Of a DNA stretch of 64,000 nt, positions 26,874 to 58,776 are shown piece after piece. The translations under genes and the position numbers were made by a program. This DNA comes from Chryseobacterium gleum (GTDB lineage: Bacteria; Bacteroidota; Bacteroidia; Flavobacteriales; Weeksellaceae). A model generated the notes under the pieces. It was not told the origin of the DNA and did no database searches. It saw nothing but the letters and a program-made list of their open reading frames with translations. How positions within the stretch are numbered: the stretch's first letter is position 1; the number at the start of each line of letters is the position of its first letter. The stretch is taken from positions 1,488,001 through 1,552,000 of the forward strand of contig NZ_LR134289.1 of assembly GCF_900636535.1 (NCBI RefSeq), given 5' to 3'.

Positions 26874-27188
26874 TCATGATTCTTTATAGGCTTTCTTGAC
26901 TAATACTCCTTTTCGATCTTTTTTAAATTTTAGCATCTTATTTTTGTCTTCAACTCTACTGAAAAATTCTGACAATGAAATCTCAAAATAATCGCAGATT
27001 GCAAATAATTTACTACAAGTAATATTATGGTCAGTAGAAGTATACCGCTCCAAAGCAAGATTTTTTCCATATTCAGTAAAATATTCATTGTTAACATCTA
27101 ACAATGCCTTGCCACTTTGTTTATAAAGGTCTTTAATTACTTCTGAAATTGCATCAGTTAATTCTGGAATTTTAGTTTGCTTTCTCAT
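26874..27188 (-). CDS. HTH (XRE-like) DNA-binding protein
   Basis: 104 aa from the ATG at 27188. The central part (KALLDVNNEYFTEYGKNLALERYTSTDHNITCSKLFAICDYFEISLSEFF) has an XRE-type helix-turn-helix arrangement ending in the usual FEISLSEFF. The Lys-rich C-terminus (KFKKDRKGVLVKKA) is likely for DNA or RNA contact. It is divergent from the structured element at 27334, and so could regulate its expression; that is only inference. Confidence 0.65.
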   Translation of the reverse strand: MRKQTKIPELTDAISEVIKDLYKQSGKALLDVNNEYFTEYGKNLALERYTSTDHNITCSKLFAICDYFEISLSEFFSRVEDKNKMLKFKKDRKGVLVKKAYKES

Positions 27189-27333
27189 ACTAACAAATGG
27201 AGTAATAAAAAACAACCTTAACAATTACACATATGTAAATTATTTTTATTATATTCGCATATTGAAACATCAAAATATTGATGTATTTTTGCGAAACTTT
27301 AAAAAAATATTAAAAGCATTCGCTTAGAATCTC

Positions 27334-27461
27334 GGATAGAAAAACTGGCACTTTTTAGCAACGAGACGATAAGCAGATTGCTCACGACCGCGCGGCGTGG
27401 GCTCTCTTATCTGTTGCAAGGTATGCCAGTACCCCTATCCAGTAAGTAGAGTTCCACGCCG
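27334..27461 (+). ncRNA. Conserved structured RNA-like element, copy 1
   Basis: A nested set of helices: 27334-27339 with 27435-27440; 27344-27350 with 27424-27430; 27358-27362 with 27413-27417; 27368-27373 with 27406-27411; and hairpin 27380-27386 with 27396-27402. The second copy (58251-58376, minus) keeps the loops (TTTTTAG, GACGATAAG, GCTCA, GGCGTGGGC, GTAAGT) while helices show compensatory changes, and the outer helix has wholly different sequence. Optional pairing of 27393-27400 with 27454-27461 could form a pseudoknot, but it is not clearly kept in copy 2. Role unknown: sRNA, leader, or single-stranded-DNA structure (oriT-like). The 491 bases from 27189 to 27679 hold no other gene. 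Confidence 0.7.
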
Positions 27462-27679
27462 TTTTTATTCTAATGCTGTCCGCCTACTCCACTATTTCTA
27501 AGCTGCTTTTACTATAAAGATTAGGCAGGTTACAATGGCAGCGCATCCATTGGGGCATTTTAGCTCACACCAATTTTCATTCATATTAAATTTCGACCTG
27601 TAGAGGCAGGGAGTTTTCTGCACTGGTAAGGCTTCCTCCAATACGGTCTTTAAAATCAAAAACTACTAAAAGACAGCTA

Positions 27680-28210
27680 TTGAAAAACAAAAAAATAGAT
27701 TTTGAGTCACGGTTCTGGTCTGGCAGTAAAACGAATTCAAGGATAAAACTTATTGAAAAATTCTTTCAATTCAACGACCTTGTTACTGCCAAAGAACTAT
27801 TGAACCAAATTATGATTTATTCGGGCAAAAAGAAGTCTGTAATACCGGAAGATTCTTCGGCGATATTTCATTTTCATCAAGCTTTACGGTCTTTAGTTCG
27901 TGCTTGCTTTCTCCTATTGCAGAAAGAAAAAAGATGGAAAGTCAACGACCCAGCGGAGAATTATTCGCCATTAGCACAGGGTTCACTTTCAGATGGTGAA
28001 TTTATAAACCCAATGCTGGTATTTCAAAAGGCTTTTGGAGAATACTCCATCAAAGATTTCGAGTACTACATTTCGGTGGCTGTCTATTTTTCGTTGGGTA
28101 CCTATTCTCACACCGCTGAAAGTAAAATCTTTGTTCCATACCTGCATTTATGCAAAATGCTTGATGCATCATACCTCATCTTAGAAAGAGGAATCCAAAA
28201 GAAAAAATAA
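27680..28210 (+). CDS. Hypothetical helical protein downstream of the structured element
   Basis: 176 aa, predicted all-helical, no signal peptide. Segments: RIKLIEKFFQFNDLVTAKELL, IFHFHQALRSLVRACFLLLQKEKR, FEYYISVAVYFSLGTYSH. No domain recognised. It starts 219 bases after the end of the RNA-like element and ends 132 bases before the SusC gene. Whether it is regulated by the element is untested. Confidence 0.55.
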   Translation: MKNKKIDFESRFWSGSKTNSRIKLIEKFFQFNDLVTAKELLNQIMIYSGKKKSVIPEDSSAIFHFHQALRSLVRACFLLLQKEKRWKVNDPAENYSPLAQGSLSDGEFINPMLVFQKAFGEYSIKDFEYYISVAVYFSLGTYSHTAESKIFVPYLHLCKMLDASYLILERGIQKKK

Positions 28211-28342
28211 CCATTAATCAAATAAGCAAAGAATGAATAACACTACTTAAGAATCCCCTAAAACATAATAAAAAAGCCCTTTCCGCAAAGTTGACGCTGG
28301 TTGGAAAGAGCAAAGTCTAATAAATTAAACTATATCAAAAGT

Positions 28343-31339
28343 ATGAAAAAAAACTTTTGCAGGCTAGGCTGTATTCAACTTTCAGCCACTTTAACCCTGC
28401 TAGTCTCGGGAATGGCAATAGGACAAGTAAGAACCATCTCGGGAACGGTCACACAAAATGGGCAGCCAGTCAGTAATGTCTCGGTATTTCAGGAAGGCAG
28501 TACAGAAGTTACAATTACTAATTCTTCCGGGAAATATCAGATCCAAGTTGCCGGAAACAATCCCGTTCTTATTTTCAAACATCCAGATTATGCAGAACAA
28601 CGGCTAGACATCGGAACAATATCCACTGCCAATATTGCTTTAAGCAATAGGGAAAGGCAAATTGAAGAAGTTGTGCTTAACGCAGGTTATTACAAAGTAA
28701 AAGAAAAAGAAAGTACGGGAAATATCGCGAAGGTTACAGCAAAAGAAATTGCAAACCAGCCTGTCACTAATGTTCTTTCTTCTATACAGGGGCGGGTTTC
28801 CGGAGTGAATATCACGCAAAGTACGGGAGTTCCCGGTGCTGGCTTTGATATTCAGATTCGTGGCAAAAACAGTCTGAGAAGTGCTGGAAACGAACCTTTA
28901 TATATCATCGATGGTGTTCCATACGGAGGGCGTGTCAATGCACAAAACTCTGCCGCCATCCTTCCTTCCGGCAATATTAGCCCTCTAAACTCCATTAACC
29001 CCAACGATATCGAAAGCATTGAAATCCTTAAAGATGCTGATGCGACAGCCATCTACGGTACACGTGGTGCGAATGGCGTTGTTCTCGTCACGACTAAACG
29101 CGGCACAAAAGGACGGTTAGAAGTTTCCCTGAATACCAACTATGGACTAAGTAAGGTGGCAAACCATATGGAAATGATGAATACCGAGCAGTATATTTCA
29201 ATGAGAAGGCAGGCTTATGCGAATTCTGGAATCGCTACCTATCCTTCCAATGCCTACGATATCAATGGAAAATGGGATCAATCGCGATATACAGATTGGC
29301 AAAAAGTCTTAATAGGCAATTGGGCAGAGTTACAGTCAACTATGATTTCGTTAAGTGGCGGAGGAGCCAACAGTAGCTTTTTAATTAGCGGAGGGCATAC
29401 TGAGCAAACCACAGTTTTTCCGGGCAATTTTCGCTATAAGGTAAATACTTTGATGTCAAGCTACAATTATAAATCTCCTAATAAAAAGTTGACCCTCTCA
29501 TTTACAAACAATTTCAGCACTTCTGATAATAATGTAATTAACACGGATCTCACCAACCGATCCCTGTTTTTAAGCCCCAATGCACCTGCTCTTTATAAGC
29601 CAGATGGAACATTAAATTGGGAAGATGGGACATTCGCCAATCCAATTGCTTCGCTGGAAGGCGTGTATAACAATACGATGAAACAGTTTAATCAAAGCCT
29701 TAATGTGGACTATTTAATAGGGCTTGGCTTAAATTTCAAAATAAATGGTGGTATGAACTTTCAGGACTTTGAAGAATTTGCCGTCAAACCAAACACAATG
29801 TACAACCCGGCTTCAACGTCAGGTTCCAGTCCACAATATTCAACTTCCTCAAAGGGTCTTAATAAAATATTCTCATTCATAGTAGAACCGCAATTATCGT
29901 GGAACAAAAAAATCAACAGACATGAACTGCAGGTCTTGGTAGGAAGTTCATTGCAAACGACAAGGAATCAGCAATCAGGCATAACAGGGACAGGATTTTC
30001 AAGCAACGCTTTACTGTACAATATTGCAGCGGCAACAACAAAGACATTCAGAGACGAAATCGATATTGATTATCGCTATGTTTCTCTATATGGAAGAGTA
30101 AATTATCAATTTGCAAACCGATATATACTTAATCTAACCGCAAGGCGGGACGGTTCCAGCCGCTTTGGTTCAGCTAACAGATTTGCAAACTTTGGAGCAC
30201 TTGGCGCAGCATGGTTGTTCTCAGAAGAGAGCTTTTTAAAAAACAGCAGATGGCTCAGTACAGGAAAATTAAGAGGAAGCTTCGGTCTGACCGGAAGCGA
30301 TGCTATCGGTGACTACCAGTTTCTTGATACATATACCTTATCAACAAGTTCCTACAATGATGTCGTAGGATTTTATCCATCAAGGCTTTACAATCCTTAT
30401 TTCAGCTGGGAAAAAACAAAAAAACTGGAGGTTGCGATTCAGCTCGGCTTCTTGAAAGATAGGCTGATGCTCCAATCCGCATATTACCAAAACCGTTCAT
30501 CCAATCAGTTGGTTGGAATCCCATTACCCGCTACAACAGGTTTTTCATCGGTGCAATCCAACCTGGATGCAACCGTTGAGAATACCGGATGGGAAGTAGA
30601 GCTGTCAGCACATCCTATCAGAGGTAATAAATGGAATTGGAGCTCTTCCTTCAATATCACGATTCCCAAAAGCAAACTGTTATCTTTTCCAGGACTGGAG
30701 GGTTCATCATACGCTAATACGTATGTAATAGGCTACCCCACTTCTATCGTCAAGCTATACCAATATGAAGGTATTGACCCCAGCACTGGATCATATCTCT
30801 TTAAAGACTACAATGGGGATGGCAAAATAAGCAGTCCCGATGACAATAAAGCCATTGAAAATATCGGAACGAAATTCTTTGGCGGATGGCAGAATGAAAT
30901 TAGCTACAAAAACTTGAGCCTGTCATTCCTATTCCAGTTCGTAAAACAGACCAACTACAACTACATAAGTACTATGCCCTACCCCGGCAATATGAACAAT
31001 CAGCCAGCTGCGTTTACAAATGTATGGTCTCAAAACAATCAAGGCGGTTTTATTATGCCTTACTCAGCCGGAACCAATGCACAGATTAATGCGCTTACAG
31101 CGAACTACATCGCAAGTACAGCAGCGATCGGCGATGCATCATTTATAAGGCTAAAAAATATCCAGTTAAACTACAAAATACCTGTTAGGTCTTCATGGAT
31201 AAAGCAGGCTTTAGTATATGTTCAGGGACAAAATCTGGCGACATGGACGAACTATTTCGGTCTCGATCCCGAGTTTACGTCAACCGGATATCTTCCCCCT
31301 TTGAAAACTTATTCTTTAGGATGTCAAATAACTTTTTAA
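28343..31339 (+). CDS. SusC/RagA-type TonB-linked outer-membrane protein
   Basis: 998 aa from the ATG at 28343 (the upstream frame extension lacks a signal peptide). A signal peptide is followed by a carboxypeptidase-regulatory-like domain (TISGTVTQNGQPVSNVSVFQEG), an IEEVVLNAGYYK segment, a plug domain with NVLSSIQGRVSGVNI and IEILKDADATAIYGTRGANGVVLVTTKRG, and a C-terminal beta-barrel ending LGCQITF. With SusD it imports large substrates under TonB energy. An imperfect hairpin (28276-28284 with 28303-28311) lies in the leader. Downstream are a SusD and an S9 peptidase rather than glycosidases, so a peptide substrate is inferred. Confidence 0.95.
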   Translation: MKKNFCRLGCIQLSATLTLLVSGMAIGQVRTISGTVTQNGQPVSNVSVFQEGSTEVTITNSSGKYQIQVAGNNPVLIFKHPDYAEQRLDIGTISTANIALSNRERQIEEVVLNAGYYKVKEKESTGNIAKVTAKEIANQPVTNVLSSIQGRVSGVNITQSTGVPGAGFDIQIRGKNSLRSAGNEPLYIIDGVPYGGRVNAQNSAAILPSGNISPLNSINPNDIESIEILKDADATAIYGTRGANGVVLVTTKRGTKGRLEVSLNTNYGLSKVANHMEMMNTEQYISMRRQAYANSGIATYPSNAYDINGKWDQSRYTDWQKVLIGNWAELQSTMISLSGGGANSSFLISGGHTEQTTVFPGNFRYKVNTLMSSYNYKSPNKKLTLSFTNNFSTSDNNVINTDLTNRSLFLSPNAPALYKPDGTLNWEDGTFANPIASLEGVYNNTMKQFNQSLNVDYLIGLGLNFKINGGMNFQDFEEFAVKPNTMYNPASTSGSSPQYSTSSKGLNKIFSFIVEPQLSWNKKINRHELQVLVGSSLQTTRNQQSGITGTGFSSNALLYNIAAATTKTFRDEIDIDYRYVSLYGRVNYQFANRYILNLTARRDGSSRFGSANRFANFGALGAAWLFSEESFLKNSRWLSTGKLRGSFGLTGSDAIGDYQFLDTYTLSTSSYNDVVGFYPSRLYNPYFSWEKTKKLEVAIQLGFLKDRLMLQSAYYQNRSSNQLVGIPLPATTGFSSVQSNLDATVENTGWEVELSAHPIRGNKWNWSSSFNITIPKSKLLSFPGLEGSSYANTYVIGYPTSIVKLYQYEGIDPSTGSYLFKDYNGDGKISSPDDNKAIENIGTKFFGGWQNEISYKNLSLSFLFQFVKQTNYNYISTMPYPGNMNNQPAAFTNVWSQNNQGGFIMPYSAGTNAQINALTANYIASTAAIGDASFIRLKNIQLNYKIPVRSSWIKQALVYVQGQNLATWTNYFGLDPEFTSTGYLPPLKTYSLGCQITF

Positions 31340-31343: not shown

Positions 31344-32717
31344 ATGAGAAATAAATATAACATACTTTTTCTTTTTGGGATCACAGCATTTAACTTTATC
31401 TCCTGCGACAATTTGATAGAGCCCGACCAGCCGACAAACCAAATTAGCAGTACAGATGTATATAGTAACGTCGGCAATGCCGATGCTGTATTAAGTAATT
31501 TATACGCGGAATTACAGTATAATTCCGTATTGTCTGGCGGGACAAGAGGCTTGGGAGCACTCTTGGGAAGTTACGCTGACGATCTCGATAATTATATGGC
31601 GGCGTCTCAAACGGCTTACCTGGACATATATAATACTCAGGTATTACCAACCAATACGGTTCTAAAAACATTGTGGACAAATGCATACAAAGAAATCTAC
31701 ATCTGTAACAGTATCATCGAAGGAGTATCAAAATCATCCTCTATAAAAGATGAGGATAAAAATAGAATTATCGGAGAGGCGGTTCTAATAAGATCAATAA
31801 TTCATCTTCGGCTTACCCAGATCTTTGGGGACATCCCATATGTTACTTCTAGCGACTATACGATCAATCAAAGCATTGGAAAATCTGCTTCTGGACAGGT
31901 ATTGATGAATATAATAAATGATCTTGAAACCGTAAAAGATTACCTTAAAAATGATTACCGAAATGCTGAAAGGATTTATCCCAATCGTTATATCGCTGTC
32001 ATGCTGCTTTGTCAGTCTAATATGTTATTGGAACAATGGGAAAAAGCAAGAATGTATGCAGAGGAAATTATTGCCAGCCCTTTATATCAATTAAATACAG
32101 ATCTCAATCTGACTTTTAAAAAAGATGGTAAGCATATCATGTGGCAATTGAAGCCGCTAAAAGCAGGTGATGCCACGGAAGAGGCAAAATTGTACTTAAT
32201 TTCAAGTGTGCCGCAGAACTATGCATTATCTAACAACCTTGTAAGTACATTCACATCCACGGACCTGCGGAAATCGTTATGGATTAAAACAATAACCTCA
32301 GGGTCAAATACGTATTATGGTAGCATAAAATATAAAAATTCATCTTCAAATACAAACGAATATTCAATCGTATTCAGAATTGAAGAGGTGTATTGTATGA
32401 TGGCTGAAATTTTGGCACGGCAAAATAACGTGAGCGATGCGCTTACTTATATTAACAAAATACGAAACAGAGCAGGTTTGGCCAACATAAGCAATACAAT
32501 TTCAAAAGACCAATTGTTAAATGAAATATTAGCAGAAAAAAGAAGGGAATTTTTTACTGATGGTGGACTGAGATTTTTTGACCTAAAACGATTCGACAGA
32601 TTGGGTGATCTTTCTCCCAATAAACCCAATTGGCAAAATTTCAGAAGCTTGTGGCCAATCCCACAGTCTGAACTCATCCTGAACCCAAATCTGAACCCGC
32701 AAAATCCTGGCTATTAA
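31344..32717 (+). CDS. RagB/SusD-family nutrient-binding lipoprotein
   Basis: 457 aa. The signal ends FNFISC (lipid-attachment Cys19). Tetratricopeptide-like helices and SusD signatures are visible: YKEIYICNSIIEGV, AVLIRSIIHLRLTQIFGDIPYV, then EKRREFFTDGGLRFFDLKRF and LWPIPQSELILNPNL...NPGY at the C-terminus. It starts 4 bases after the SusC stop. Binds substrate at the cell surface for SusC. The stop TAA overlaps the ATG of the S9 peptidase by one base. Confidence 0.93.
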   Translation: MRNKYNILFLFGITAFNFISCDNLIEPDQPTNQISSTDVYSNVGNADAVLSNLYAELQYNSVLSGGTRGLGALLGSYADDLDNYMAASQTAYLDIYNTQVLPTNTVLKTLWTNAYKEIYICNSIIEGVSKSSSIKDEDKNRIIGEAVLIRSIIHLRLTQIFGDIPYVTSSDYTINQSIGKSASGQVLMNIINDLETVKDYLKNDYRNAERIYPNRYIAVMLLCQSNMLLEQWEKARMYAEEIIASPLYQLNTDLNLTFKKDGKHIMWQLKPLKAGDATEEAKLYLISSVPQNYALSNNLVSTFTSTDLRKSLWIKTITSGSNTYYGSIKYKNSSSNTNEYSIVFRIEEVYCMMAEILARQNNVSDALTYINKIRNRAGLANISNTISKDQLLNEILAEKRREFFTDGGLRFFDLKRFDRLGDLSPNKPNWQNFRSLWPIPQSELILNPNLNPQNPGY

Positions 32718-35237: not shown

Positions 35238-35516
35238 TTAATTTTGTGGAATCTCAAACAGATTGTTTGGGCAGCTGGTACCGCTAAGATCACGTAAATT
35301 CTCTGTACCCATTCCCACATTTGCCGTACAAATGACACTACCAGTATCACTGCATGAAATGTGGGTATTCTGGCATTCCTCCAGTTCACCTGGTCTGAAT
35401 ACATAACCGTCTTTTACAGCTTTGTGAGCATTTTTGTTCACATTGGTGGCAAAGGCGCTTCCTGCGCCAAAAATTACAACTACTGCCGGTAAGATGAATT
35501 TTCTAAGTGTTTTCAT
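35238..35516 (-). CDS. DUF6520 family small secreted protein
   Basis: 92 aa from the ATG at 35516. Signal peptide MKTLRKFILPAVVVIFGAGSAFA; the mature ~69 residues hold four Cys (EEC, ISC, VIC, TSC), likely two disulfides. The longer frame would read through the previous gene. From family knowledge, such small secreted proteins are common in Chryseobacterium-type genomes and often lie beside a MauE/DoxX-like gene, as here (8 bases). Function unknown; a peptide precursor or redox-dependent effector is possible. Confidence 0.75.
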   Translation of the reverse strand: MKTLRKFILPAVVVIFGAGSAFATNVNKNAHKAVKDGYVFRPGELEECQNTHISCSDTGSVICTANVGMGTENLRDLSGTSCPNNLFEIPQN

Positions 35517-35523
35517 AATACAA

Positions 35524-37056
35524 TTATTGTTTGTTATGCCTACTCTGATCGGGTTTTCGGCTTTCCCCATGTTTAAAATTACGGGCTAAAGTTTGCGCAA
35601 TACGATAGCTGGTAATCTGTTTTCCTGCCAATACAAAAAGATACTGGTCAGTAACAAGCAGCTGAGACATCTTTTTACTTCCGCGGCGTTGTACATAAAA
35701 GCTGCCCCAATATTTTGAAGATTCGGTATCATAGACATCTACAATATCATTTTTATTCCATAGGTCCCTGGATTCATAGCGCCCCATTGTTCCTGATTGA
35801 ATAAACAGCAGCCCTCTATGAGCAAAAGAATTAGGGTTTAGGACGACAGGTGGTGCTGACATCTTTTTCCTTCCGTCTTTTAACTGCACTACTCTGATTT
35901 TAGAAATGCTTACGGTATCTATGGTTTTGATCTTATCAATGTTTTCAAGATTCCTGCTGGTACCTAATGCCTGATTTCGGTAACTGTAAACATACCAGAT
36001 CTTACCACCATATTCATCGTAATGTAGCTTACCATCCACATCAAAAATACCATCCACCTGTTTTTCAAGTATATTTGGATAGAGCTTCACTTTCTCTTTC
36101 GATTTAAGATTAAGGCTTCCCAAGATAAGCCCTCCTGTAGTATTGCTTTGGGTTCTTAACACAAAACTATCAGGTCCAATGGCGGCAAGTTGATCAAAAT
36201 AAACATCTTGAAAACTTATCTGATTAATTTTACCACTGAAATCATTTGGTTCTGATCGATAAATCGCCGGAACAATTCCATCGTACATATACAGATACTT
36301 ATCAGTCACTAAAGATCTTACTGCATGAAAAGTGTGAAGCTGATCTGGAACTAAACGTATAGTATCAACTTTTGCTAAATCCCTGTCAATAGCCAGAAGG
36401 ACAAAAGGCGAAGTGGGATTACCCAAATAAATTCTACCATTTGTTGCGCCAGCAAAATAATACGAATTATATTTCAGGTCATAAGATTTTTCCTCTATGA
36501 TAGGATGTTGTGGGAACCTTCGGATGAAGTTGTTTTTTTCTTTTATGATATGTTCTGATGAATAAAAAAGATAGGTTACAATCGAAGAAAATATCGCAAT
36601 AATACAAAGTATTGATAAACTAGGTCCAACCAAAACATTCTGTCTATATTTTGCAATAATCAGTATTGCCAGAATCGCAGCCATAACACAAACAATATTG
36701 AAGATCAAATGTTCTGTCCAGCCCATTTTCTCCAATATACCGCCACACGAACAGGGTACAAAATCACTATAATGAAGAATAAGGTAAATATATACAGTAA
36801 ATGAAGACATTATACCTAAAGAAGCATAAAGACCAATCGTCCTTAATTTCGGTATCACCAGTAGCAAAACGATAACCACTTCAGATATAATGGTAGCGTA
36901 CGAAATAAAACCCGCATAAGCACTAAGCAAGGGAGATTGGGCAATCTGAACCTGGAAATTTTCAAAATCCCTCATTTTACTGACGCCTGCATAGCAAAAT
37001 AAAAATATAAAAAAATAAGCAACAACTGCCGGAAAATAGTTAATTAGCTTTTTCAT
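35524..37056 (-). CDS. MauE/DoxX-like membrane protein with C-terminal beta-rich domain
   Basis: 510 aa. The first ~190 residues have five to six membrane spans and a FCYAGVSKMRDFENFQVQIAQSP motif, matching MauE/DoxX-type redox membrane proteins, with a CSCGGI pair (about 101-105) that could be redox active. The remaining ~310 residues are beta-rich with repeated YLGNPTSPFVLL-, YDTESSKYWGSFYVQ-type strands, suggesting a propeller on the outer face. It lies just upstream of the DUF6520 gene on the same strand. Role in oxidative folding of that small protein is inferred. Confidence 0.75.
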   Translation of the reverse strand: MKKLINYFPAVVAYFFIFLFCYAGVSKMRDFENFQVQIAQSPLLSAYAGFISYATIISEVVIVLLLVIPKLRTIGLYASLGIMSSFTVYIYLILHYSDFVPCSCGGILEKMGWTEHLIFNIVCVMAAILAILIIAKYRQNVLVGPSLSILCIIAIFSSIVTYLFYSSEHIIKEKNNFIRRFPQHPIIEEKSYDLKYNSYYFAGATNGRIYLGNPTSPFVLLAIDRDLAKVDTIRLVPDQLHTFHAVRSLVTDKYLYMYDGIVPAIYRSEPNDFSGKINQISFQDVYFDQLAAIGPDSFVLRTQSNTTGGLILGSLNLKSKEKVKLYPNILEKQVDGIFDVDGKLHYDEYGGKIWYVYSYRNQALGTSRNLENIDKIKTIDTVSISKIRVVQLKDGRKKMSAPPVVLNPNSFAHRGLLFIQSGTMGRYESRDLWNKNDIVDVYDTESSKYWGSFYVQRRGSKKMSQLLVTDQYLFVLAGKQITSYRIAQTLARNFKHGESRKPDQSRHNKQ

Positions 37057-38534: not shown

Positions 38535-39785
38535 ATGACGCAGACAAAAAAATCAACGTTCAAACTGCTTTTCTACTTGAAAAAGAACGAACTGAAAAAA
38601 AATGGTAATGCTCCGATTATGGCACGTATTACCATTGACGGAACACCTAAAACTTTCGGGACAAAGTTAGAAATTGACCCTAGCAATTGGGATCTAAAAT
38701 ATGGAAGAGTTGAGGGCAAAAGCGCAACAGCTTTAAATATTAATAAAAAGTTGGATAACATACGTGGGCGTATTGACAAAATTTATGAAGATATGCTGAA
38801 ACACGAGGGGTTTGCTACTTCCCAAAAAGTAAAGCTTTCATTCTTGGGTGTTGGTGTAATGGATGATGCAATTCTAAAAGTCTTCAATGATAAAAATGAG
38901 GATTTTAAAAAATTGGTTGACAAGGAAGAACGTTCACAAAGCACCTACAACAAGTACATCACGGTTTATAATCATCTTACCGCTTTTATTAAAGAACGCT
39001 ATCATCGTGATGATATGGCTTTTCGGGAATTGACTGGAGATTTTATTAGGGAATTCGATTTTTATCTTCGGTACGATTTACAATCTACACATAATACGGT
39101 TTGGGTTTACACGATGCCCGTACTAAGTCTGGTAGAATTGGCTATAAAAAAAGGTTTGATACGTGATAATCCGTTTCAAGATTATGAAATTAATATGGAA
39201 GAAACCGACAGGGGTTATATTCTTAAAGAAGATGTAGAAAAACTGATGATGTGTGCACCGCCCCACCCACGGTATGAGCTTGTAAAAGATCTTTTTATTT
39301 TCAGTTGTTTTACCGGACTTGCTTATGCGGATATTAAAAAACTAACAAGGAACAATATTCAGTCTTTCTTCGATGGCCATCAATGGATCATCAGCAGAAG
39401 AAAAAAATCAGATATTGCTTCTAATGTTCGATTAATGGAAATTCCAAAACGTATCATAGAAAAATACCTCGGTAGCACTCGTAATGAGTTTATCTTTCCA
39501 GTTCCAACTAATGTAACCTGCAATACTCACATTGGCAAATTAATTGAAAAAGCTGAAATTATAACAGAACAAAAAGTAACTTTTCACACCGCAAGACACA
39601 CATTTGGAACGATGTTTTTGACCGAAGGCGTACCTCTTGAAAGCCTTAGCAAAATGATGGGACATAAAAACATTTTAACCACACAGATTTATGCTAAAAT
39701 TACCAGCCAAAAGATTAGTAAGGATATGGATTTGGTAGCTCCTAAATTTAAGGAGATTGAAGAAGCGTTTTTACAGGTTATATAG
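38535..39785 (+). CDS. Tyrosine-type site-specific integrase
   Basis: 416 aa. N-terminal arm-binding region (1-110), SAM-like core-binding part (about 115-215), and catalytic domain. Catalytic residues: His351-Thr-Ala-Arg354, His377, Tyr386 in IYAKI, with Lys in RRKKSD (about 290). The first Arg of the box is replaced: FTGLAYADI (259-267) has Ala, as in the IntDOT type that lacks the canonical Arg I. 220 bases of non-coding DNA precede it after the truncated host gene; a strong terminator follows. Confidence 0.95.
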   Translation: MTQTKKSTFKLLFYLKKNELKKNGNAPIMARITIDGTPKTFGTKLEIDPSNWDLKYGRVEGKSATALNINKKLDNIRGRIDKIYEDMLKHEGFATSQKVKLSFLGVGVMDDAILKVFNDKNEDFKKLVDKEERSQSTYNKYITVYNHLTAFIKERYHRDDMAFRELTGDFIREFDFYLRYDLQSTHNTVWVYTMPVLSLVELAIKKGLIRDNPFQDYEINMEETDRGYILKEDVEKLMMCAPPHPRYELVKDLFIFSCFTGLAYADIKKLTRNNIQSFFDGHQWIISRRKKSDIASNVRLMEIPKRIIEKYLGSTRNEFIFPVPTNVTCNTHIGKLIEKAEIITEQKVTFHTARHTFGTMFLTEGVPLESLSKMMGHKNILTTQIYAKITSQKISKDMDLVAPKFKEIEEAFLQVI

Positions 39786-39807
39786 TTAATCACAATTTGA
39801 TAATTAC

Positions 39808-39836
39808 TAGCAGAACTTAACGGTTCTGCTTTTTTT
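39808..39836 (+). terminator. Terminator of the integrase gene
   Basis: An 8-bp repeat (39808-39815 with 39822-39829, 6-base loop) is followed by T. It lies about 25 bases past the stop. Confidence 0.8.
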
Positions 39837-40434
39837 ATGCCCATATTTTATAGTCAAAGCACATTTACTTCGCTCTGCTATTCCCTTTCTGTAAAAGAGC
39901 TTTTCGGCTACTTCTGGAACAGAAGATTAAAAAATGTTGCCATCTACTCCTCCCACACAAATACATTTTTCTAATCCTCTGTTAATGTGTCTTTGATAGC
40001 CCCACCGCTTTAAAAAAGTGTTTTAAAAATTCAGCGAATTGGAAGTGTTATTTCAATTCACTGTAAACCATTTCTCAATGCCATCTTCTTGGCTTCCACA
40101 TTCATTTTATCCAAAGACCCGTATGCTTTTTTGTCCCATTTCAAGAGCAAAGGTATTTCCGTGTTCTTAACGCGTCACAAAGGTCAAGCAAGTTTGGAAA
40201 ATAATCTCCACCCGTTGGGTAGTATTTTTTTCCAAAACCTTGGTGATGCTAAACACGAACCTTTTATGCTCGTGAAACGAAACATAGCATACTCCGGCTC
40301 TTTAAACGAATAAAAAAAAATGTCAGATACGAAAATTAAAAACATTGGAAATGGTAATGAAACGAAACAGCACCTCCTCTCATTGCCGAATAAATCTAAA
40401 AAAAATCAAAATCAATAACTAAAAATTAAAGAAT
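39837..40434. other. Intergenic region, no supported gene
   Basis: Nearly 600 bases between the integrase and ssb. A 74-codon plus-strand frame (40089-40313) and a ~36-residue minus-strand frame have unusual composition and no family; I do not call them genes. Confidence 0.4.
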
Positions 40435-40812
40435 ATGAACATCACAGGAAGACTGACAAGGGATGCGGAAGTACGCACAACGTCACAGGACAAACAAGTA
40501 GTAAACTTTTCAGTAGCGACCAACGACAGCTACCGTAACAAGCAGGGCGAACGCATAGAGCAAACCACCTATTTCGACTGCTCCTATTGGATAAGCCCGA
40601 ATGTAGCCAAGCTACTTACAAAAGGCACTTTGGTAGAACTATCGGGACGAGTAAGTACAAGAGCGTGGACAGGTAATGATGGAGAGCCAAGAGCAGGATT
40701 GAATTTCCATACCTCACAAATCAAATTGCACGGCGGTGGCAAAAAATCGGAAACGGCACAAGCTACCACAAGCACAAACAATAACAAGGCAGAAGACGAC
40801 CTCCCATTTTAA
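40435..40812 (+). CDS. ssb: Single-stranded DNA-binding protein
   Basis: 125 aa with the OB-fold start MNITGRLTRDAEVRTT, conserved VVNFSVATNDSYRNKQGER, YFDCSYWI, LVELSGRVSTRAW. The acidic tail ends EDDLPF, the C-terminal protein-interaction peptide. ICE-borne SSB coats transferred strands during conjugation. First gene of a plus-strand run leading to the PRTRC set. Confidence 0.92.
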   Translation: MNITGRLTRDAEVRTTSQDKQVVNFSVATNDSYRNKQGERIEQTTYFDCSYWISPNVAKLLTKGTLVELSGRVSTRAWTGNDGEPRAGLNFHTSQIKLHGGGKKSETAQATTSTNNNKAEDDLPF

Positions 40813-40856
40813 TCAAGAACATTCAATCCATTTTTTATATCAAAATTTTAAACATT

Positions 40857-41930
40857 ATGGCACATAATATCAATTTCAACGAGAGAACAGGACGTTATTC
40901 ATTTTTCAGCGTTCAGCAAAAAGCGTGGCACGGTTTAGGGCAAATCGTAGAGCAATATCCAACAAGTGAGGAAGCTATCAAACATGCAGGATTAGATTAC
41001 GAAGTCGTAAAATCCCCACTATTTACCAAAGGTTCCGGCATTATCGAAACCACCAATGGTATAGAGATAGGCAGTAGCGAATTAGAAGTGCCTAATTATT
41101 TCGCCAACATTCGCACCGATAACAATGCCGTATTGGGCGTAGTCGGTAAGGATTACCACATCGTACAAAACCGTGAAGCCTTTAATTTCTTTGATGCTAT
41201 TGTAGGCGGTGGCGAGGGCATTCTGTATGAAACCGCAGGAGCATTAGGCAACGGTGAACGCATTTTTATCACAGCCAAACTGCCTGACTATATTCGTGTG
41301 GGTAATGGCGATGATGTTACGGAAAAGTACATTTTCCTTACCACTTCGCACGATGGTAGCGGAAGTATCACAGCCGCATTCACGCCTATCAGAATTGTTT
41401 GTCAAAATACCTTAAACGCTTCATTACGCAGTATGACTAATGTTGTCCGTATCAAACACACTTCGGGAGCAAAAGGACGTATCGAGAACGCTCACAAGAT
41501 TATGGGACTTGCCAACACATTGAGCAACCAATTAGAGGGCATTTTTAATGAATGGGCAAAAGTAAAGGTATCAGACCGTGAAGTTAAAAAGCTAATCCAA
41601 TTGGCACTTTGCCCGAATAAGGAAACGCTTGACCTTATCAAAAAAGGTGCAGAAGATGAAATTTCCACCGTGTTCAAAAACACCGTTGAAGATGCTTTTG
41701 CATACGCAATGATAAGCGACACCCAACAAATGGATACGACAAAAGGAACATTGTTCGGAGCTTATAATGCGGTTACAGGTTACTATCAGAACGTAAGAAA
41801 TTACAAGAATGATGAAGCCAAGTTGCAGAGCATTGTATTGGGTGGCACTGCTCAACTCAAATCACAGAAAGCATTTGAATTGTGTAATGGTTTTGCTTTA
41901 GACGGTGCAGAAATCCTAAACCTTAATTAA
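40857..41930 (+). CDS. DUF932 domain protein (phage/plasmid-like)
   Basis: 357 aa matching DUF932/TIGR03299: AWHGLGQIVEQYPTSEEA near the N-terminus, then a block with GSGSITAAFTPIRIVCQNTLNAS (about 165-190). These proteins are found on plasmids and ICEs and are of unknown role. Starts 44 bases after ssb. Confidence 0.85.
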   Translation: MAHNINFNERTGRYSFFSVQQKAWHGLGQIVEQYPTSEEAIKHAGLDYEVVKSPLFTKGSGIIETTNGIEIGSSELEVPNYFANIRTDNNAVLGVVGKDYHIVQNREAFNFFDAIVGGGEGILYETAGALGNGERIFITAKLPDYIRVGNGDDVTEKYIFLTTSHDGSGSITAAFTPIRIVCQNTLNASLRSMTNVVRIKHTSGAKGRIENAHKIMGLANTLSNQLEGIFNEWAKVKVSDREVKKLIQLALCPNKETLDLIKKGAEDEISTVFKNTVEDAFAYAMISDTQQMDTTKGTLFGAYNAVTGYYQNVRNYKNDEAKLQSIVLGGTAQLKSQKAFELCNGFALDGAEILNLN

Positions 41931-41938
41931 ATAACAAC

Positions 41939-41966
41939 AGGCTACCGCTTTAATCGGTGGTAGCCT
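41939..41966 (+). terminator. Hairpin after the DUF932 gene
   Basis: AGGCTACC (41939-41946) pairs with GGTAGCCT (41959-41966). The hairpin is 9 bases past the stop; an attenuating terminator is possible. Confidence 0.5.
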
Positions 41967-41982
41967 ACTAAAAACAAAAGTT

Positions 41983-42465
41983 ATGGCAAATTGGTGCAGT
42001 AATACAGTTGTATTCGAGGGGAAACCCGTAACAATCACAGCAATACAGGAACTTTTTCAATCAATGAAGGAAAAGGAAGAAAAAACCGAAGAAGGGCAAC
42101 TACCCGAATTTATTTCTAAAAATAATGGTGGTTATTTCTTCAATATCTATTGGAATGAAGGCGATGAAGGGCAATTTCAGTATGAAACAAAATGGTCGCC
42201 CAATATAGAAGTAATTCAAAAGATAGCGGAACATTACGAAGTGAACTTTACACAGGATTATGAAGAAATGGGCAATCTTATATATGGTAGGGCAACATTT
42301 TATGACAAGCTACTCACAGATATTTATTTGGAAGACGAAGATTTTGAACAATACGGGTTTGATGAAGAAACGGACACCTACCATTTCGAAGGAGAAATTT
42401 ACGAAAGTGATTACGAGATATTGGAAACCTTGTTGGAACGAAAAATCAAAAATCAGCAACCTTAA
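41983..42465 (+). CDS. Api92-like ferredoxin-fold protein
   Basis: 160 aa with the Api92/DUF1281-like opening MANWCSNTVVFEG, then FFNIYWNEGDEGQFQYETKWSP and an acidic C-terminus. Members occur on phages and mobile elements and share a ferredoxin-like fold; function unknown. Confidence 0.7.
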   Translation: MANWCSNTVVFEGKPVTITAIQELFQSMKEKEEKTEEGQLPEFISKNNGGYFFNIYWNEGDEGQFQYETKWSPNIEVIQKIAEHYEVNFTQDYEEMGNLIYGRATFYDKLLTDIYLEDEDFEQYGFDEETDTYHFEGEIYESDYEILETLLERKIKNQQP

Positions 42466-42476
42466 AATCTACCGCA

Positions 42477-42818
42477 ATGGAAATAGTAACAATAATAGCC
42501 ACAAAGTTTGTACGCCACGATGTACCCGAATTGGCAACCCTGCAAAATGCAAAGGTTTACTTATTAAGGGAAAAACTGAACAAAGGCGAAAAATTGAACC
42601 GAGCCGAAAAAAATTGGCTTGCAGAAGCAGTAAACCGAAACGCCTATTTCAAAAGAGCTGTACCGCTTATGGGTTATCGCTTTGGATTTGAGGATGTTTT
42701 AAAATCCTATATCGTAAAGCAGTACGGCAGTTGGGCAGAATACAACGCTCCCGACAAAAAAAGTCTTCGAAGTATCATCTATGGTAGGATTGACCAAATA
42801 GCGGAAATCAGTAAATAA
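42477..42818 (+). CDS. Hypothetical ICE protein
   Basis: 113 aa, helical with a Lys/Asn-rich middle (LREKLNKGEKLNRAEKNWLAEAVN) and a YRFGFEDVLKSYIVKQYG segment. Conserved within Bacteroidota ICE runs (from memory), no known role. 11 bases after the Api92-like gene. Confidence 0.65.
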   Translation: MEIVTIIATKFVRHDVPELATLQNAKVYLLREKLNKGEKLNRAEKNWLAEAVNRNAYFKRAVPLMGYRFGFEDVLKSYIVKQYGSWAEYNAPDKKSLRSIIYGRIDQIAEISK

Positions 42819-42836
42819 CACTTAAAGCCAAGTACG

Positions 42837-43019
42837 ATGAAAATCATAGATAAAAAAGGGAATTGGATTGAAGTTACCGACCTCATAAAAGCTATTCAAC
42901 AAACAGGTTGGTATAAAGAATATCTGCACGACCCACCAACAGAAACAGACAAGGAAAGACAGGAATATTGGGCAGATATGCACAAGAAACTTAAAAAAGA
43001 AAAAAGTAATAACAATTAA
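42837..43019 (+). CDS. Small hypothetical ICE protein
   Basis: 60 aa: KIIDKKGNWIEVTDLIKAI then a polar ETDKERQEYWADMHKKLKKEK tail. Closely spaced (18 bases before, 12 after) in the PRTRC run. Not recognised. Confidence 0.6.
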   Translation: MKIIDKKGNWIEVTDLIKAIQQTGWYKEYLHDPPTETDKERQEYWADMHKKLKKEKSNNN

Positions 43020-43031
43020 AATTTAAGAACG

Positions 43032-43649
43032 ATGAATACAAATTTTTTCAATCAGATACAGCAGTTGGACTTTACAGGAGTATTGCAACTGAACATTTCA
43101 AAAGGAATAGAAAGCAACCTAATTGTAACGGTATTGCTCAACAACGAAGCGTGTGGAGATAGTGCAAAAAATCTAATTCCCCCATTGACATTTAACGCCA
43201 CGCCCCAAGAGTTTGATGAGGGATTTTTTGAGCAGATAACCACACCTATACAAAAGGTATCGGGCTTAATGGTGGATATGGAGAAATTTCAAAAGCAACT
43301 TGATGAAGCCAAAGCACAATCGGCAATCGAGAAAGCAAAAACCGAAAAAGAGAAAAAAGAAAAAGAAGCCAAAGACAAGAAGTTTAAAGATGCAATGGCA
43401 AAGGCGGACGAGTTGGAAAAAGAGGGTAAGTTCCGTGAAGCGTGGATAAAAGTACCCGATTTAACGGAGTTTCCCGAAAAAGCAGACGAGATACGCAAAC
43501 GCAAAACAGCATTATCCGACAAATTCGCAACACCGAGCCTTTTCGGAGCAATGGACGAAGCAAAACCCGAACCACCAATAGAACAAGAAATTACTGCCGA
43601 TTATCCTATTGATGAAACAGACGAAGATGAAAAGAATAGTAATCATTAA
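43032..43649 (+). CDS. PRTRC system protein E
   Basis: 205 aa. N-terminal 90 residues (beta-rich, FFNQIQQLDFTGVLQLN, PLTFNATPQEFDEGFF) and an Ala/Lys/Glu coiled region (about 95-150), with an acidic Pro-rich tail, fit PRTRC E. Starts the E-C-F-B-ThiF cluster. PRTRC systems are plasmid/ICE-borne and undefined in role. Confidence 0.78.
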   Translation: MNTNFFNQIQQLDFTGVLQLNISKGIESNLIVTVLLNNEACGDSAKNLIPPLTFNATPQEFDEGFFEQITTPIQKVSGLMVDMEKFQKQLDEAKAQSAIEKAKTEKEKKEKEAKDKKFKDAMAKADELEKEGKFREAWIKVPDLTEFPEKADEIRKRKTALSDKFATPSLFGAMDEAKPEPPIEQEITADYPIDETDEDEKNSNH

Positions 43650-43660
43650 AACAGAACATT

Positions 43661-43879
43661 ATGTTATTAGCAACGCAATTAGAAAGAGTTTTTATACTCA
43701 AAGATAAAGGACAGGACATCAGACTGACCGACCCAGAACCACGTTGGAGCGTGGAAGCCGTGATGAATTTTTATGCCAATATGTACCCCATTCTGACAAC
43801 TGCAAAAGCATCTGCACCGCAAATTAAAGATGATGCAGTCGAGTACAAATTTGAAAGCGTAATGGGTACGAAAGGTTAA
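43661..43879 (+). CDS. PRTRC system protein C (ubiquitin-like)
   Basis: 72 aa: a beta-grasp-sized protein (LLATQLERVFILKDKG, LTDPEPRWSVEAVMNFYANMYPILTTAKA) ending VMGTKG. PRTRC C falls in the prokaryotic ubiquitin-like group (Prok_Ub) from family knowledge; a C-terminal Gly fits a conjugation tail. Followed 15 bases on by PRTRC F. Confidence 0.78.
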   Translation: MLLATQLERVFILKDKGQDIRLTDPEPRWSVEAVMNFYANMYPILTTAKASAPQIKDDAVEYKFESVMGTKG

Positions 43880-43894
43880 CCAAATATTAAAGCG

Positions 43895-45061
43895 ATGAAT
43901 TATGCAACGCAACATCATATCGGGAACTATCAGCATACCCGAACAAAAACGACAACGGCAATTGCGCCGACAGTTGGGCGAGTTCGCCAGTTGGATGCAA
44001 AGACCAAAGGACGCAAACCAAGTGCAGAAAGACAAGCAGAAATCCGTACCGATAGCAATGCTCCCAATGGTATTCTAAAGTGTACGTTTCTGCCCAAACT
44101 GAAAACAGCACAATCCGTAGAGGCTTGTCAGAAAACGGAGAGGGATTTTTACAAGTCCCTTTCCAAGCTTTCCAATCATTACAGCATTGAACCAATGCAA
44201 ACCAAAGATTTTGAATTTCCCTACAAGATGGCATTGGCTATGTGGGATATGGAAACCAAAGTGAAGCGTACCAATATCAATTGGGATGGTTTCAAATTGA
44301 TACAGGATAGCGGTAAAACCTATTTTTTGAGCGAGGAACGATACCGCACAGGAACAACTTTGTATTATATTCCTATTGCACCACTCTTTAAAATGCTCAA
44401 AGACCCGAAGCATAAAATGACTGCACAGCTTCTACTATCGGTGTATAGTTATCTGTACCACATTGCCCAAATTCCATATTACAGACAGGAAGAAAGCTAT
44501 TTGTATTGGCTCTACGAAATGATGAACGATTGGGTGGAACAGGACGAGGAAACGGAAGAAACTGAAAGCTATAAAAGTGAATTGAGAAATGCCGAATACA
44601 TTGGCGATAGAATAGAACAAAAGCTATTTAATCGAACTAATCTAAAGGTATTTGAACAGCGTTTGAACCGATTTAAAAGTGTTGATATGTTCGACAAGGA
44701 ATGTTGGCAAATAGCTTGTAATGCGTTCGCCCTTTTTACGGAATATCCGAATGAAACCATTTTCAGAAATGCCTCCTTGCCCGAAAAGGACCCTTATAAT
44801 GATGATGACGAAAATGAAGTAATCGGAATGGAAAAGTACATTTCATTTATTGCAGATACCAAAGGTTGGTTGTACGAAAGCCTTTCAGATACCATCAACA
44901 ATGAATTTAACGAGTATGGAGCAATGGAAGAACCAACTATTTCCAAACGGTTTGATGGAAGCGATATACCAATATCCAACCTCGATTTTGAGAACCGTTT
45001 GTTTGATTTATTGAATGATTTGAGTGGATTATTATACGAATACAAAACAACAGAAAAATGA
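43895..45061 (+). CDS. PRTRC system protein F
   Basis: 388 aa, helical after a basic N-terminus. A polar start (IAPTVGRVRQLDAKTKGRK) and acidic middle (EEETEETESYKSELRN) with YLYHIAQIPYYRQEESYLYWLYEMM are as in PRTRC F. The stop codon overlaps the ATG of PRTRC B by four bases (ATGA). Confidence 0.75.
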   Translation: MNYATQHHIGNYQHTRTKTTTAIAPTVGRVRQLDAKTKGRKPSAERQAEIRTDSNAPNGILKCTFLPKLKTAQSVEACQKTERDFYKSLSKLSNHYSIEPMQTKDFEFPYKMALAMWDMETKVKRTNINWDGFKLIQDSGKTYFLSEERYRTGTTLYYIPIAPLFKMLKDPKHKMTAQLLLSVYSYLYHIAQIPYYRQEESYLYWLYEMMNDWVEQDEETEETESYKSELRNAEYIGDRIEQKLFNRTNLKVFEQRLNRFKSVDMFDKECWQIACNAFALFTEYPNETIFRNASLPEKDPYNDDDENEVIGMEKYISFIADTKGWLYESLSDTINNEFNEYGAMEEPTISKRFDGSDIPISNLDFENRLFDLLNDLSGLLYEYKTTEK

Positions 45062-45780
45062 ACACAACAACAGATATAACAGACCATTTTGGAACATTGT
45101 ACTATCCGAAATCCGCTTTGGTTTTCTATGAAACCAAAGGAACTGAAACCGATATGTACGTGGAGCATTTCGATATGGACAGCAACGGAACGCCAATCAA
45201 TGCCCACCCATTGACGGTAAAGGAAGCAAACGTATTGGTAAAGTCTTTACAGACTGATGAAGAAAAGAACACAGCCTTTTTAAAACCAAAGGGAATATTG
45301 CCTACAAATATTCTGCATATCAACCCAAGTGCTGAAAAAGGTACGGTACTTTGGTACACCAAAACACAACAACGGAAACTGTATTTTGTGGATAGTTTGG
45401 GCATACCCAACGGAATGTCACAAGTACCGCCAATGCTATGGTTAGCGAGCAAAAGCAGTCTTACCGTATTTGCTTTGGCATATGACAGAAGACCCACCGA
45501 GAAAACGCCATTGCATTATGCACCTTTCTTCAATATCTACGAAAAGGGCAATGTATGTATGGGTACGGTAAGCATAGACATTAAAAATTCGGCTTCGGTT
45601 GAGGAATTTATCCGAGCGTGGGAGCATTATTTTTTCAATTCCTATTTCAGCCATTCTTTATGCGAGAACTTGACGAAAACAAATATTGTAAATCTTTGGA
45701 AAGACCTTATTGGTACTGATAAACCCTTTCCGAAAGAAGTATTAAAAAAGAACAATAAAACCATTAAAAATCTATTGTGA
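45058..45780 (+). CDS. PRTRC system protein B (E2-like)
   Basis: 240 aa. KSALVFYETKGTETDMYVEHF, then LPTNILHINPSAEKGTVLWYTK and a NIYEKGNVCMGTVSI motif whose Cys fits the E2-like (Prok-E2_D) active-site position. Translation is coupled to PRTRC F (overlap) and to the ThiF gene (stop TGA at 45778-45780 overlapping ATG at 45780). Confidence 0.78.
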   Translation: MNTTTDITDHFGTLYYPKSALVFYETKGTETDMYVEHFDMDSNGTPINAHPLTVKEANVLVKSLQTDEEKNTAFLKPKGILPTNILHINPSAEKGTVLWYTKTQQRKLYFVDSLGIPNGMSQVPPMLWLASKSSLTVFALAYDRRPTEKTPLHYAPFFNIYEKGNVCMGTVSIDIKNSASVEEFIRAWEHYFFNSYFSHSLCENLTKTNIVNLWKDLIGTDKPFPKEVLKKNNKTIKNLL

Positions 45781-46586: not shown

Positions 46587-46588
46587 AA

Positions 46589-46680
46589 GCCGAAATCGGC
46601 GGGCAAAAATGCAATTCCTTCCTACGGTCGGAAACGCATTTTTGCGGTTTAAAGCGGATGCAATCACTTTGCAAAAATGC
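46589..46680. repeat. Cluster of inverted repeats with GCAAAAATGC 10-mer x3
   Basis: GCCGAAATCGGC at 46589-46600, then GCAAAAATGC at 46603-46612, its reverse complement at 46636-46645, and GCAAAAATGC again at 46671-46680. The second pair makes a long hairpin. It follows directly after the PRTRC operon; it could be oriT-like, an operator, or a terminator zone. The rest of 46681-46855 shows nothing. Confidence 0.6.
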
Positions 46681-48598: not shown

Positions 48599-48630
48599 CA
48601 TCGGAATACCCAAGTTTAATATTACAACTA

Positions 48631-57808: not shown

Positions 57809-58198
57809 CTAATTGATAACGGCTTCTATTACTTTTCTAAAATATTCCGCATCATTACCAATCAGCAAGTAACTTGAAAAACCAATATCTAAAAGATATT
57901 TACCCACTTTCGCATCATCAATATCACTATGTGCAATAAGTTTTATTGTTGGATATTTTGTTCTTAATTCTTGAAGTTCAACCAAAACATTCTTGTTGTA
58001 AAAATCAAGGTCGATAATACAAATTTTAGGGAGTTCATTTAATGAAGATAATTTTGATAGTCCATCTTCAATGCTTTCTGAACGAAATAAGACTTCAGTT
58101 CCTGAAGCAATGAGGTCTTTGCAAATTAAATCTAAAATTGGGCTTTTATCATTGATAAAGGCGAGTGTAATTTTTTGTTGGGATGTACCAGTTTTCAT
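57809..58198 (-). CDS. Orphan receiver-like protein
   Basis: 129 aa from the ATG at 58198. REC-like pattern: KITLAFINDKSP, phosphoacceptor Asp in ICIIDLDFYN (about residue 58), KLIAHSD and LLIGND. The early acidic pair is reduced (Asn-Asp) and the final Lys is not clear, so it may be a degenerate receiver. It lies 53 bases downstream (minus) of the second structured element. Confidence 0.6.
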   Translation of the reverse strand: MKTGTSQQKITLAFINDKSPILDLICKDLIASGTEVLFRSESIEDGLSKLSSLNELPKICIIDLDFYNKNVLVELQELRTKYPTIKLIAHSDIDDAKVGKYLLDIGFSSYLLIGNDAEYFRKVIEAVIN

Positions 58199-58250: not shown

Positions 58251-58376
58251 GCCACTACACTTACCGCACATTGAGGCACTGGTATACCCGACAACGAATA
58301 AGCGAGCGCCCACGCCTATGGCATGAGCGTTCTTCCTTATCGTCCCGTTGTCTAAAAATTACCAGTTTTCAATGTG
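58251..58376 (-). ncRNA. Conserved structured RNA-like element, copy 2
   Basis: Helices in plus coordinates: outer 58369-58376 with 58267-58274; 58360-58366 with 58278-58284; 58347-58352 with 58290-58295; 58336-58341 with 58297-58302; 10-bp hairpin 58320-58329 with 58307-58316. Same order as copy 1, with compensatory changes. Lies between the HTH gene at 58471 and the receiver gene at 57809, 53 bases upstream of the latter, so a leader RNA is possible. Confidence 0.7.
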
Positions 58377-58470
58377 GGACTTAAAGCAAAAACACTTTAA
58401 GTATTTCTATATTTTACATAGCAAAGATACTAAACTCTTGCTATTAGATGTATTAATGCAATAAAAAAGC

Positions 58471-58776
58471 TTAGTCTGAATTAGTTTTGTGATTGATATA
58501 ATTCTGCTCCAATATTGTCATCAAATCTGTTTCCTTATAAATAATTTTGCCACCAATCTGAATATACGGCAGGATATTATCATCACGATATTGCTGTAAA
58601 GTGCGTTTGCTAATGTGTAACAGTTTGCATACATCTTCGCCCGACAAATAAATTTCTCCATTCATTACGGGACGATAGTTTTTTAATATGCTTTCAATAC
58701 GGTCTCTCAATATCAAAATCATTTCTTGATGGGAAATGATTTCTTCATTATCATTCGTCAGTAAATCCATTATCAT
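58471..58776 (-). CDS. Helix-turn-helix (excisionase-like) protein
   Basis: 101 aa (an alternative ATG at 58770 gives 99). Winged-helix core: YLSGEDVCKLLHISKRTLQQYRDDNILPYI then GGKIIYKETDLMTIL. It overlaps the next HTH gene's 3' end by 26 bases. Equivalent of the 7781-8089 gene. Confidence 0.8.
   Translation of the reverse strand: MIMDLLTNDNEEIISHQEMILILRDRIESILKNYRPVMNGEIYLSGEDVCKLLHISKRTLQQYRDDNILPYIQIGGKIIYKETDLMTILEQNYINHKTNSD

Follow-up and report, generated by a model that had tools for sequence, protein, structure and literature searches.

An apparently undescribed structured RNA element of the Bacteroidota that seems able to form either a pseudoknotted hairpin or an intrinsic terminator

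Two stretches of the Chryseobacterium gleum DNA analysed here (64,000 nt, contig NZ_LR134289.1, positions 1,488,001 to 1,552,000; hereafter the window), located at 27334-27461 (+) and 58251-58376 (-), were found to be copies of one apparently undescribed RNA family of the Bacteroidota. Judged from its sequence, the RNA seems able to fold either into a large pseudoknotted hairpin or into an intrinsic terminator, the one excluding the other. It probably acts in cis, as a riboswitch-like transcription attenuator leader choosing between these two exclusive folds.

Results and discussion

The two window copies

Both copies lie where the original prediction, made from the letters of the window, had placed them, and they displayed the same nested helices. 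Copy 1 folded at -47.6 kcal/mol (z -4.4) and copy 2 at -49.7 kcal/mol (z -5.2), each being better than all of its 200 shuffles. The opposite strands also folded well (z -3.8 for copy 1 and -6.8 for copy 2), so that the strand is not given by folding alone. The helix differences noted earlier were all confirmed: the outer helix reads GGATAG/CTATCC in copy 1 and CACATTGA/TCAATGTG in copy 2, the second helix CTGGCA/TGCCAG and CTGGTA/TACCAG, respectively (hence GGCA/TGCC versus GGTA/TACC), and the third one is longer in copy 2. The window contains the joint pattern GACGATAAG..GGCGTGGGC twice (0.00 expected from shuffles) and the whole genome contains it four times, the reversed pattern being absent from the genome.

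Some details had to be revised. Segments GACGATAAG and GGCGTGGGC are indeed common to both copies, but the shared segments previously taken for loops are mostly helix strands (P4 and P5), and GTAAGT, also described as a loop, is the start of a 3' strand able to displace P4/P5. As for the extent, copy 1 was correctly located, but its conserved unit begins 5' of 27334, with the promoter box, a hairpin and a pseudoknot strand, and runs through the T-run (Table 1). The 5' hairpin is nearly invariant and hence offers no covariation.

Table 1. Coordinates of the element, of its putative signals and of neighbouring genes in the window
Feature	Coordinates	Strand	Basis or remark
Copy 1, promoter -7 box TATTTTTG (Bacteroidota TAnnTTTG)	27284..27291	+	motif; start site putative
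Copy 1, 5' hairpin AAGC/GCTT	27314..27325	+	alignment A2, nearly invariant
Copy 1, pseudoknot 5' strand TCTC	27330..27333	+	partner GAGA 27363-27366; double-sided change at 3/4 pairs
Copy 1, P1 5' strand GGATAG	27334..27339; 3' strand 27435-27440	+	A4: 97.4% cells paired, double-sided change 7/7 pairs
Copy 1, P2 5' strand ACTGGCA	27344..27350; 3' strand 27424-27430	+	98.0% cells paired
Copy 1, P3 5' strand GCAAC	27358..27362; 3' strand 27413-27417	+	covariation, all-pairs ranking
Copy 1, pseudoknot 3' strand GAGA	27363..27366	+	covariation, all-pairs ranking
Copy 1, segment A (P4 5' GATAAG 27368-27373 and P5 5' GCTCACG 27380-27386)	27368..27386	+	
Copy 1, segment B (GGCGTGGGCTCTCTTAT and end of P4 3')	27394..27411	+	partner A or C
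Copy 1, parts of segment B	P5 3' 27396-27402; P4 3' 27406-27411	+	partners in segment A
Copy 1, segment C GTAAGTAGAGTTCCACGCCG, complement of B	27442..27461	+	B:C duplex -30.9 kcal/mol
Copy 1, T-run after C	27462..27466	+	sequence; completes intrinsic-terminator shape
Divergent ORF, 116 aa, XRE/Cro-like, upstream of copy 1	26874..27224	-	best blastp match (L160) in XRE cluster formed by divergent ORFs of other loci
Conserved ORF u176, 176 aa, first gene after copy 1	27680..28210	+	no Pfam or NCBIfam match
SusC/RagA TonB-linked outer membrane protein	28301..31339	+	TIGR04056 692.3 bits; Plug, TonB_dep_Rec
SusD-like lipoprotein	31344..32717	+	PF07980, PF14322
Tyrosine integrase on probable island	38535-39785		
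Receiver-like ORF after copy 2, ATG at 58198	57809..58198	-	weak Response_reg E=0.13
Copy 2, P1 to P1'	58267..58376	-	R1 match 118.7 bits
Copy 2, P1	58369-58376/58267-58274	-	
Copy 2, P3	58346-58352/58290-58296	-	
Copy 2, P4	58336-58341/58297-58302	-	
Copy 2, P5	58322-58328/58308-58314	-	
Copy 2, H1	58354-58370	-	
Copy 2, H2	58275-58288	-	
Copy 2, pseudoknot GTCCC with GGGAC	58376-58380; 58342-58346	-	
Copy 2, segment C; T-rich tail	58245-58267; 58236-58244	-	B:C duplex -28.0 kcal/mol
Copy 2, promoter -7 box TATCTTTG	58422..58429	-	motif
HTH_17/excisionase-like ORF upstream of copy 2	58471..58776	-	PF12728; TIGR01764 below cut-off

Distribution and family membership

The original prediction had named a covariance-model search as its check, and this search, carried out with model R1 (151 positions, 30 sequences), brought both further copies and covarying helices. 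Eight copies were recognised in the genome (worst E=9.3e-17, 150 of 2405 first-look candidates scored), with no further match up to E=1. Among 395 sampled Bacteroidota genomes, 57 matched R1 at E<=0.001, in 28 of 170 genera; within the host order, matches at E<=1e-4 occurred in 71 of 296 genomes and 16 of 90 genera, with up to nine copies per genome. A pattern scan of genome contigs, without taxonomic restriction, yielded at least 120 stretches. R1 recognised 119 of the 120 listed, a set from which 27 of its 30 training sequences come. Among the named records are Chryseobacterium, Flavobacterium, Maribacter, Mucilaginibacter, Niabella, Echinicola, Dyadobacter, Chitinophaga, Alistipes and Paludibacteraceae. 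Flavobacterium johnsoniae strain CI04 has a copy (L155). Region 27250-27700 was identical letter for letter in Chryseobacterium indologenes J31 (L123).

A member at 4706-4862 (-) of L076 is carried by a metagenome-assembled genome labelled Fibrobacter succinogenes, the contig being assigned by label only; it precedes an ORF of 1527 aa that looks by eye like a helicase or restriction enzyme. Pattern matches L157 and L158, from viral contigs, were not recognised by the covariance model. Likewise L144, from a Prevotella metagenome-assembled genome, was a non-member by R1; it is still included in the first-ORF tallies below (109, 116 and 120 loci), which were not made non-redundant.

Several samples were used. 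Alignments A2 (62 of 116 rows kept at 85% identity) and A3 (30 kept at 80%) do not include L076, L126, L144, rows with too little flank or near-identical rows. A4 comprises 57 matches (56 distinct), among them the genome's own eight and 20 loci that are hand-picked weak matches. The non-redundant set was obtained from 181 aligned rows, reduced to 172 by dropping the window's two rows, a weak second L155 match and those rows whose flanks were too short, and then to 75 copies below 85% identity. Ranking and folding tests concerned 68 of these 75, the rows of A6 being left out.

Nested helices, pseudoknot and P2 junction

Selection on structure, as originally argued from two copies, was supported by strong covariation over the family. 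In A4, which was fitted to the nested helices and not to the pseudoknot, 96.1% of the cells of the five helices and the pseudoknot were paired, against 32-42% in slid-partner controls. Double-sided change was observed for 36 of 37 pairs (415 cells), and the covariation score reached 0.584, against 0.05-0.07 in the slid controls. When about 10,700 column pairs were ranked, the best one of the pseudoknot came 42nd, behind the best unexplained pair. G-U cells far outnumbered A-C cells (127 versus 23), which fits an RNA of the element's strand rather than DNA.

An additional hairpin, H2 (GG(U/C)A..U(A/G)CC), was found around the 3' strand of P2. Its cells were paired in 98.2% of cases and its third pair was UA in 33, CG in 14 and UG in 8. 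A control slid by +2 gave 95.7% of fewer cells, with a covariation score of 0.126 versus 0.313 for H2. The 5' strand of P2 has A-rich and U-rich flanks, and the corresponding hairpin H1 (AAA/UUU around P2) is nearly invariant and thus weakly tested. Together, the pairing of H2 and these flanks suggest that hairpins H1 (27339-27356) and H2 (27420-27433) make a kissing contact through P2, the 5' hairpin being only suggested. Few unpaired bases were invariant over the family, in which the element would differ from most metabolite aptamers, which have such invariant bases. GAAAACTGGTA, which forms the 5' strand of P2, recurs at the start of the receiver-like ORF after copy 2 (58181-58198, -), where it could pair with the loop of H2; near an ORF start in L164 the similar AAAACTGGTA was seen.

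A second fold ending at the T-run

Segment C, 3' of P1, is complementary to segment B, which consists of the 3' strands of P5 and P4 with the bases between them. Since A:B and B:C both need this same segment, they are mutually exclusive. The B:C duplex amounted to -22.7 to -35.1 kcal/mol in all of 15 hand-chosen copies (8 own and 7 diverse), and over the 75 non-redundant copies its median was -30.4 kcal/mol, versus -18.4 with shuffled C. It reached -20 kcal/mol in 71 of the 75, whereas a 42-nt stretch further downstream did so in 24. The four failing copies were L112, L208, L211 and L214; long insertions of L208 and L214 fall outside the fixed span of the B:C test, and L211 appears decayed by eye.

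In A4, an alignment that was not fitted to B:C, 86.4% of its cells were paired, against 34-49% when slid, with double-sided change at 13 of 16 pairs and a covariation score reached by none of 500 shuffles. Shuffling C between sequences still left 79.5% of the cells paired, because B and C are both conserved, and the outermost pairs held in only 70-80%. When all column pairs were ranked without using B:C, its best pairs came at ranks 21, 36 and 43. The first of these, alone among the B:C pairs, and an H2 pair at rank 22 outscored every pair outside the named helices; ranks 36 and 43 lay below the best unexplained pair, and most B:C pairs ranked low. The most telling cases are members far from Flavobacteriales, in other classes of the phylum, where the letters of A, B and C are very different and both predicted pairings are kept. 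Relatives L196-L199, L203, L204 and L215 have A=GCGTCC, B=GGACGC and C=GCGTCC-TTTTT, with all three segments kept.

The 10 nt after C include at least six T in 68 of 75 copies, a T content seen in 9% of background windows. Together with this T-run, the predicted B:C helix has the shape of a long-loop intrinsic terminator. A scan for short-loop terminators reported two such sites in the region, B:C not being among them. The element therefore has the two exclusive conserved helices, one abutting a T-run, that are looked for in an attenuator. Plain folding gave A:B as the minimum for 55 of 68 copies and B:C for 5; when A was blocked, only 41 of 68 formed B:C. A switch to the terminator would thus need help.

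Promoter and upstream genes

A leader had been among the readings originally offered, and it agrees with a promoter box upstream and a co-directional gene downstream. Within 120 nt upstream, TAnnTTTG occurred in 66 of the 75 non-redundant copies, and in 47 of these 66 it lay 22-29 nt before the model start; a downstream control gave it for 3 of 75. No short reading frame, as looked for in a leader-peptide attenuator, was seen by eye in the 5' parts of the genome's own copies.

An inverted repeat, ACATCAA/TTGATGT (27267-27284), adjoins the -7 box of copy 1, and other Chryseobacterium copies display GTTAC/GTAAC, GCTAC/GTAGC or ATTAC/GTAAT at the same place. It is perhaps the operator of the divergent XRE protein. 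Such a palindrome is clear by eye in Chryseobacterium. Over 64 copies the signal was modest (arms of at least 5 in 26, mean arm 3.92 versus 3.08 when shuffled), and a family-wide operator is therefore not claimed. The divergent ORF of copy 1 itself displayed only a weak Pfam match (HTH_26, E=0.067) and none in NCBIfam. Among the matches listed, a divergent ORF of the XRE cluster was found upstream in 73 of the 116 loci with an upstream ORF, and a same-strand HTH_17 ORF in 13 of these 116.

Downstream genes and genomic setting

The next ORF (at least 120 aa, within 1200 nt) was co-directional in 67 of the 72 assessable copies among the 75, at distances from 7 to 1015 nt. Copy 2 is one of the five exceptions, because its short receiver-like ORF falls outside this rule. 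As expected of an attenuator, the element lies between a putative promoter and a co-directional gene, both recognised by their sequence. Among the matches listed, the first downstream ORF of 109 pattern loci was SusC in 54, u176 in 12, sigma in 9, receiver in 6, u110 in 5, another on the + strand in 18 and another on the - strand in 5; SusC was within the first three ORFs in 62 of these 109. No common pathway was evident among the genes behind the element. Conserved hairpins further downstream received slight support, with only seven loci comparable.

Copy 1 is followed by u176, SusC, SusD and an S9 peptidase. Copy 2 belongs to an HTH_17/receiver subclass, and the ORF at the corresponding place in L072 matched PF00072 at 1.2e-25. 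Region 38535-56000 is a probable integrated island with a sulfate permease, a chromate transporter, a Na+/H+ antiporter and an IS110 transposase besides the integrase, and copy 2 is probably carried by it. The predicted carriage by mobile elements thus suits copy 2, with its excisionase-like HTH gene and this probable island; it does not extend to copy 1, nor to most loci examined, which lead SusC, sigma-factor or other genes.

The absence of a named family was upheld: no Rfam 15 family reached its gathering score on the element, either in the window or in the 34 loci with relatives, and at a relaxed threshold the best matches of the two copies (E=0.2 and 0.44) were taken as chance. The only gathering-level match of the window was a DUF805b RNA (RF02914, 39.1 bits) at 35537-35570 (-), where ORF 35524-37056 (-) ends and ORF 35238-35570 (-) starts. 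Another DUF805b match, at 5538-5573 in L126, lies just behind an element copy, and in L206 an rteR sRNA (RF04181, 2692-2772, -), perhaps in a CTnDOT-like element, lies about 600 nt behind one. In these two loci the Rfam RNA adjoins the element copy without overlapping it.

Proposed mechanism and alternatives

As an attenuator, the element would owe its transcription to a TAnnTTTG promoter of its own. The ON fold would consist of the nested P1-P5 hairpin and the TCTC/GAGA pseudoknot, perhaps with the kissing-loop P2, B being held by A, and polymerase would then read into the SusC/SusD, sigma/anti-sigma, receiver or secreted-protein genes. In the OFF fold, B would be paired with the distal C directly before the T-run. 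Which fold forms would be decided by a metabolite, a protein or an RNA serving as trigger at the 5' domain. Since A:B can form first during transcription and is the usual minimum, read-through would be the expected default, and termination would therefore need a trigger that weakens A:B or a slow polymerase favouring C.

The main alternative is an independent small RNA of about 170 nt, for which B:C would be its own terminator and which would then refold to P1-P5 and act in trans with a free U-rich 3' tail. A promoter box at a mostly fixed distance and a terminal T-run indeed delimit a compact unit, and the variable distance to the next ORF suits this reading. However, the next ORF is nearly always co-directional and often belongs to few gene families, and A:B would form first and hinder the RNA's own terminator, which makes the small RNA unlikely. 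Less likely still is a processive antiterminator, in which P1-P5 would bind either a NusG-like factor or RNA polymerase and thereby allow transcription to reach the end of long SusCD operons. The long SusC/SusD runs behind the element and a structure more conserved than its loop letters would agree with it, but it leaves unexplained why C tracks the complement of B at the element's end. A DNA feature folded as a single strand (oriT, att or transposon end), the other reading originally offered, is very improbable despite the integrase and IS110 genes near copy 2 and the good folding of the opposite strands, given the G-U bias, the promoter box, the T-run, the gene contexts elsewhere (among the 120 loci listed, the first ORFs to the left and right mostly belong to other families) and the database searches, in which the copy-2 region had no phage match and one weak plasmid match and copy 1 had no plasmid match.

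A broader form of the attenuator reading, put forward tentatively as possible rather than probable, is that of a phylum-wide class of switching RNAs with a pseudoknot and kissing-loop junction, responding to a metabolite or protein signal, serving SusCD importers as a second level of control below the XRE repressors, and copied to mobile islands.

Relation to known systems

Terminator-antiterminator exchange occurs in T-box, SAM-I and purine leaders. The element resembles them by a structured 5' domain, an alternative helix, a T-run and a gene behind. It differs in that the exchanged strand is in the innermost hairpins and not in the outer P1, and it displays neither a recognised aptamer sequence nor an Rfam match. 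The purine riboswitch has kissing hairpin loops, and the element may likewise pair two hairpin loops at a junction; yet its kissing would involve about 7 bp and a four-helix junction with an extra pseudoknot, the 5' hairpin being only suggested. Cis-encoded sRNAs of Bacteroides polysaccharide loci are reportedly antisense to their locus. They share with the element an RNA control beside SusCD genes, whereas the element is sense, upstream and structured.

Other structured flavobacterial leaders are Flavo-1, Rfp18 and the structured 5' regions of Flavobacterium psychrophilum, 64 in number, some conserved across genera and outside Rfam, according to the available passages of PMC9723704. These passages do not describe the element, and a single species' instance of it may be listed in the tables of that paper. 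Among the matches listed in a search of open journal papers (main texts), we found neither a description of the element nor a sense leader RNA of its kind before SusC/SusD. The nearest case in the available passages was the cobalamin riboswitch before another TonB-dependent transporter, in F. psychrophilum (PMC9723704). Candidate lists behind PMC8040213 or PMC6429828 could include the element.

Conclusion

An attenuator leader is of a known kind; the fold, the mode of strand exchange and the family appear to be new. In many Bacteroidota, nutrients are imported mainly by SusC/SusD pairs. Should the switch operate as proposed, nutrient uptake, ECF-sigma circuits and mobile islands would be connected throughout the phylum by a single class of RNA. 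The element would also represent a large family of orphan riboswitch-like RNAs, clearly predicting which changes turn genes on or off.
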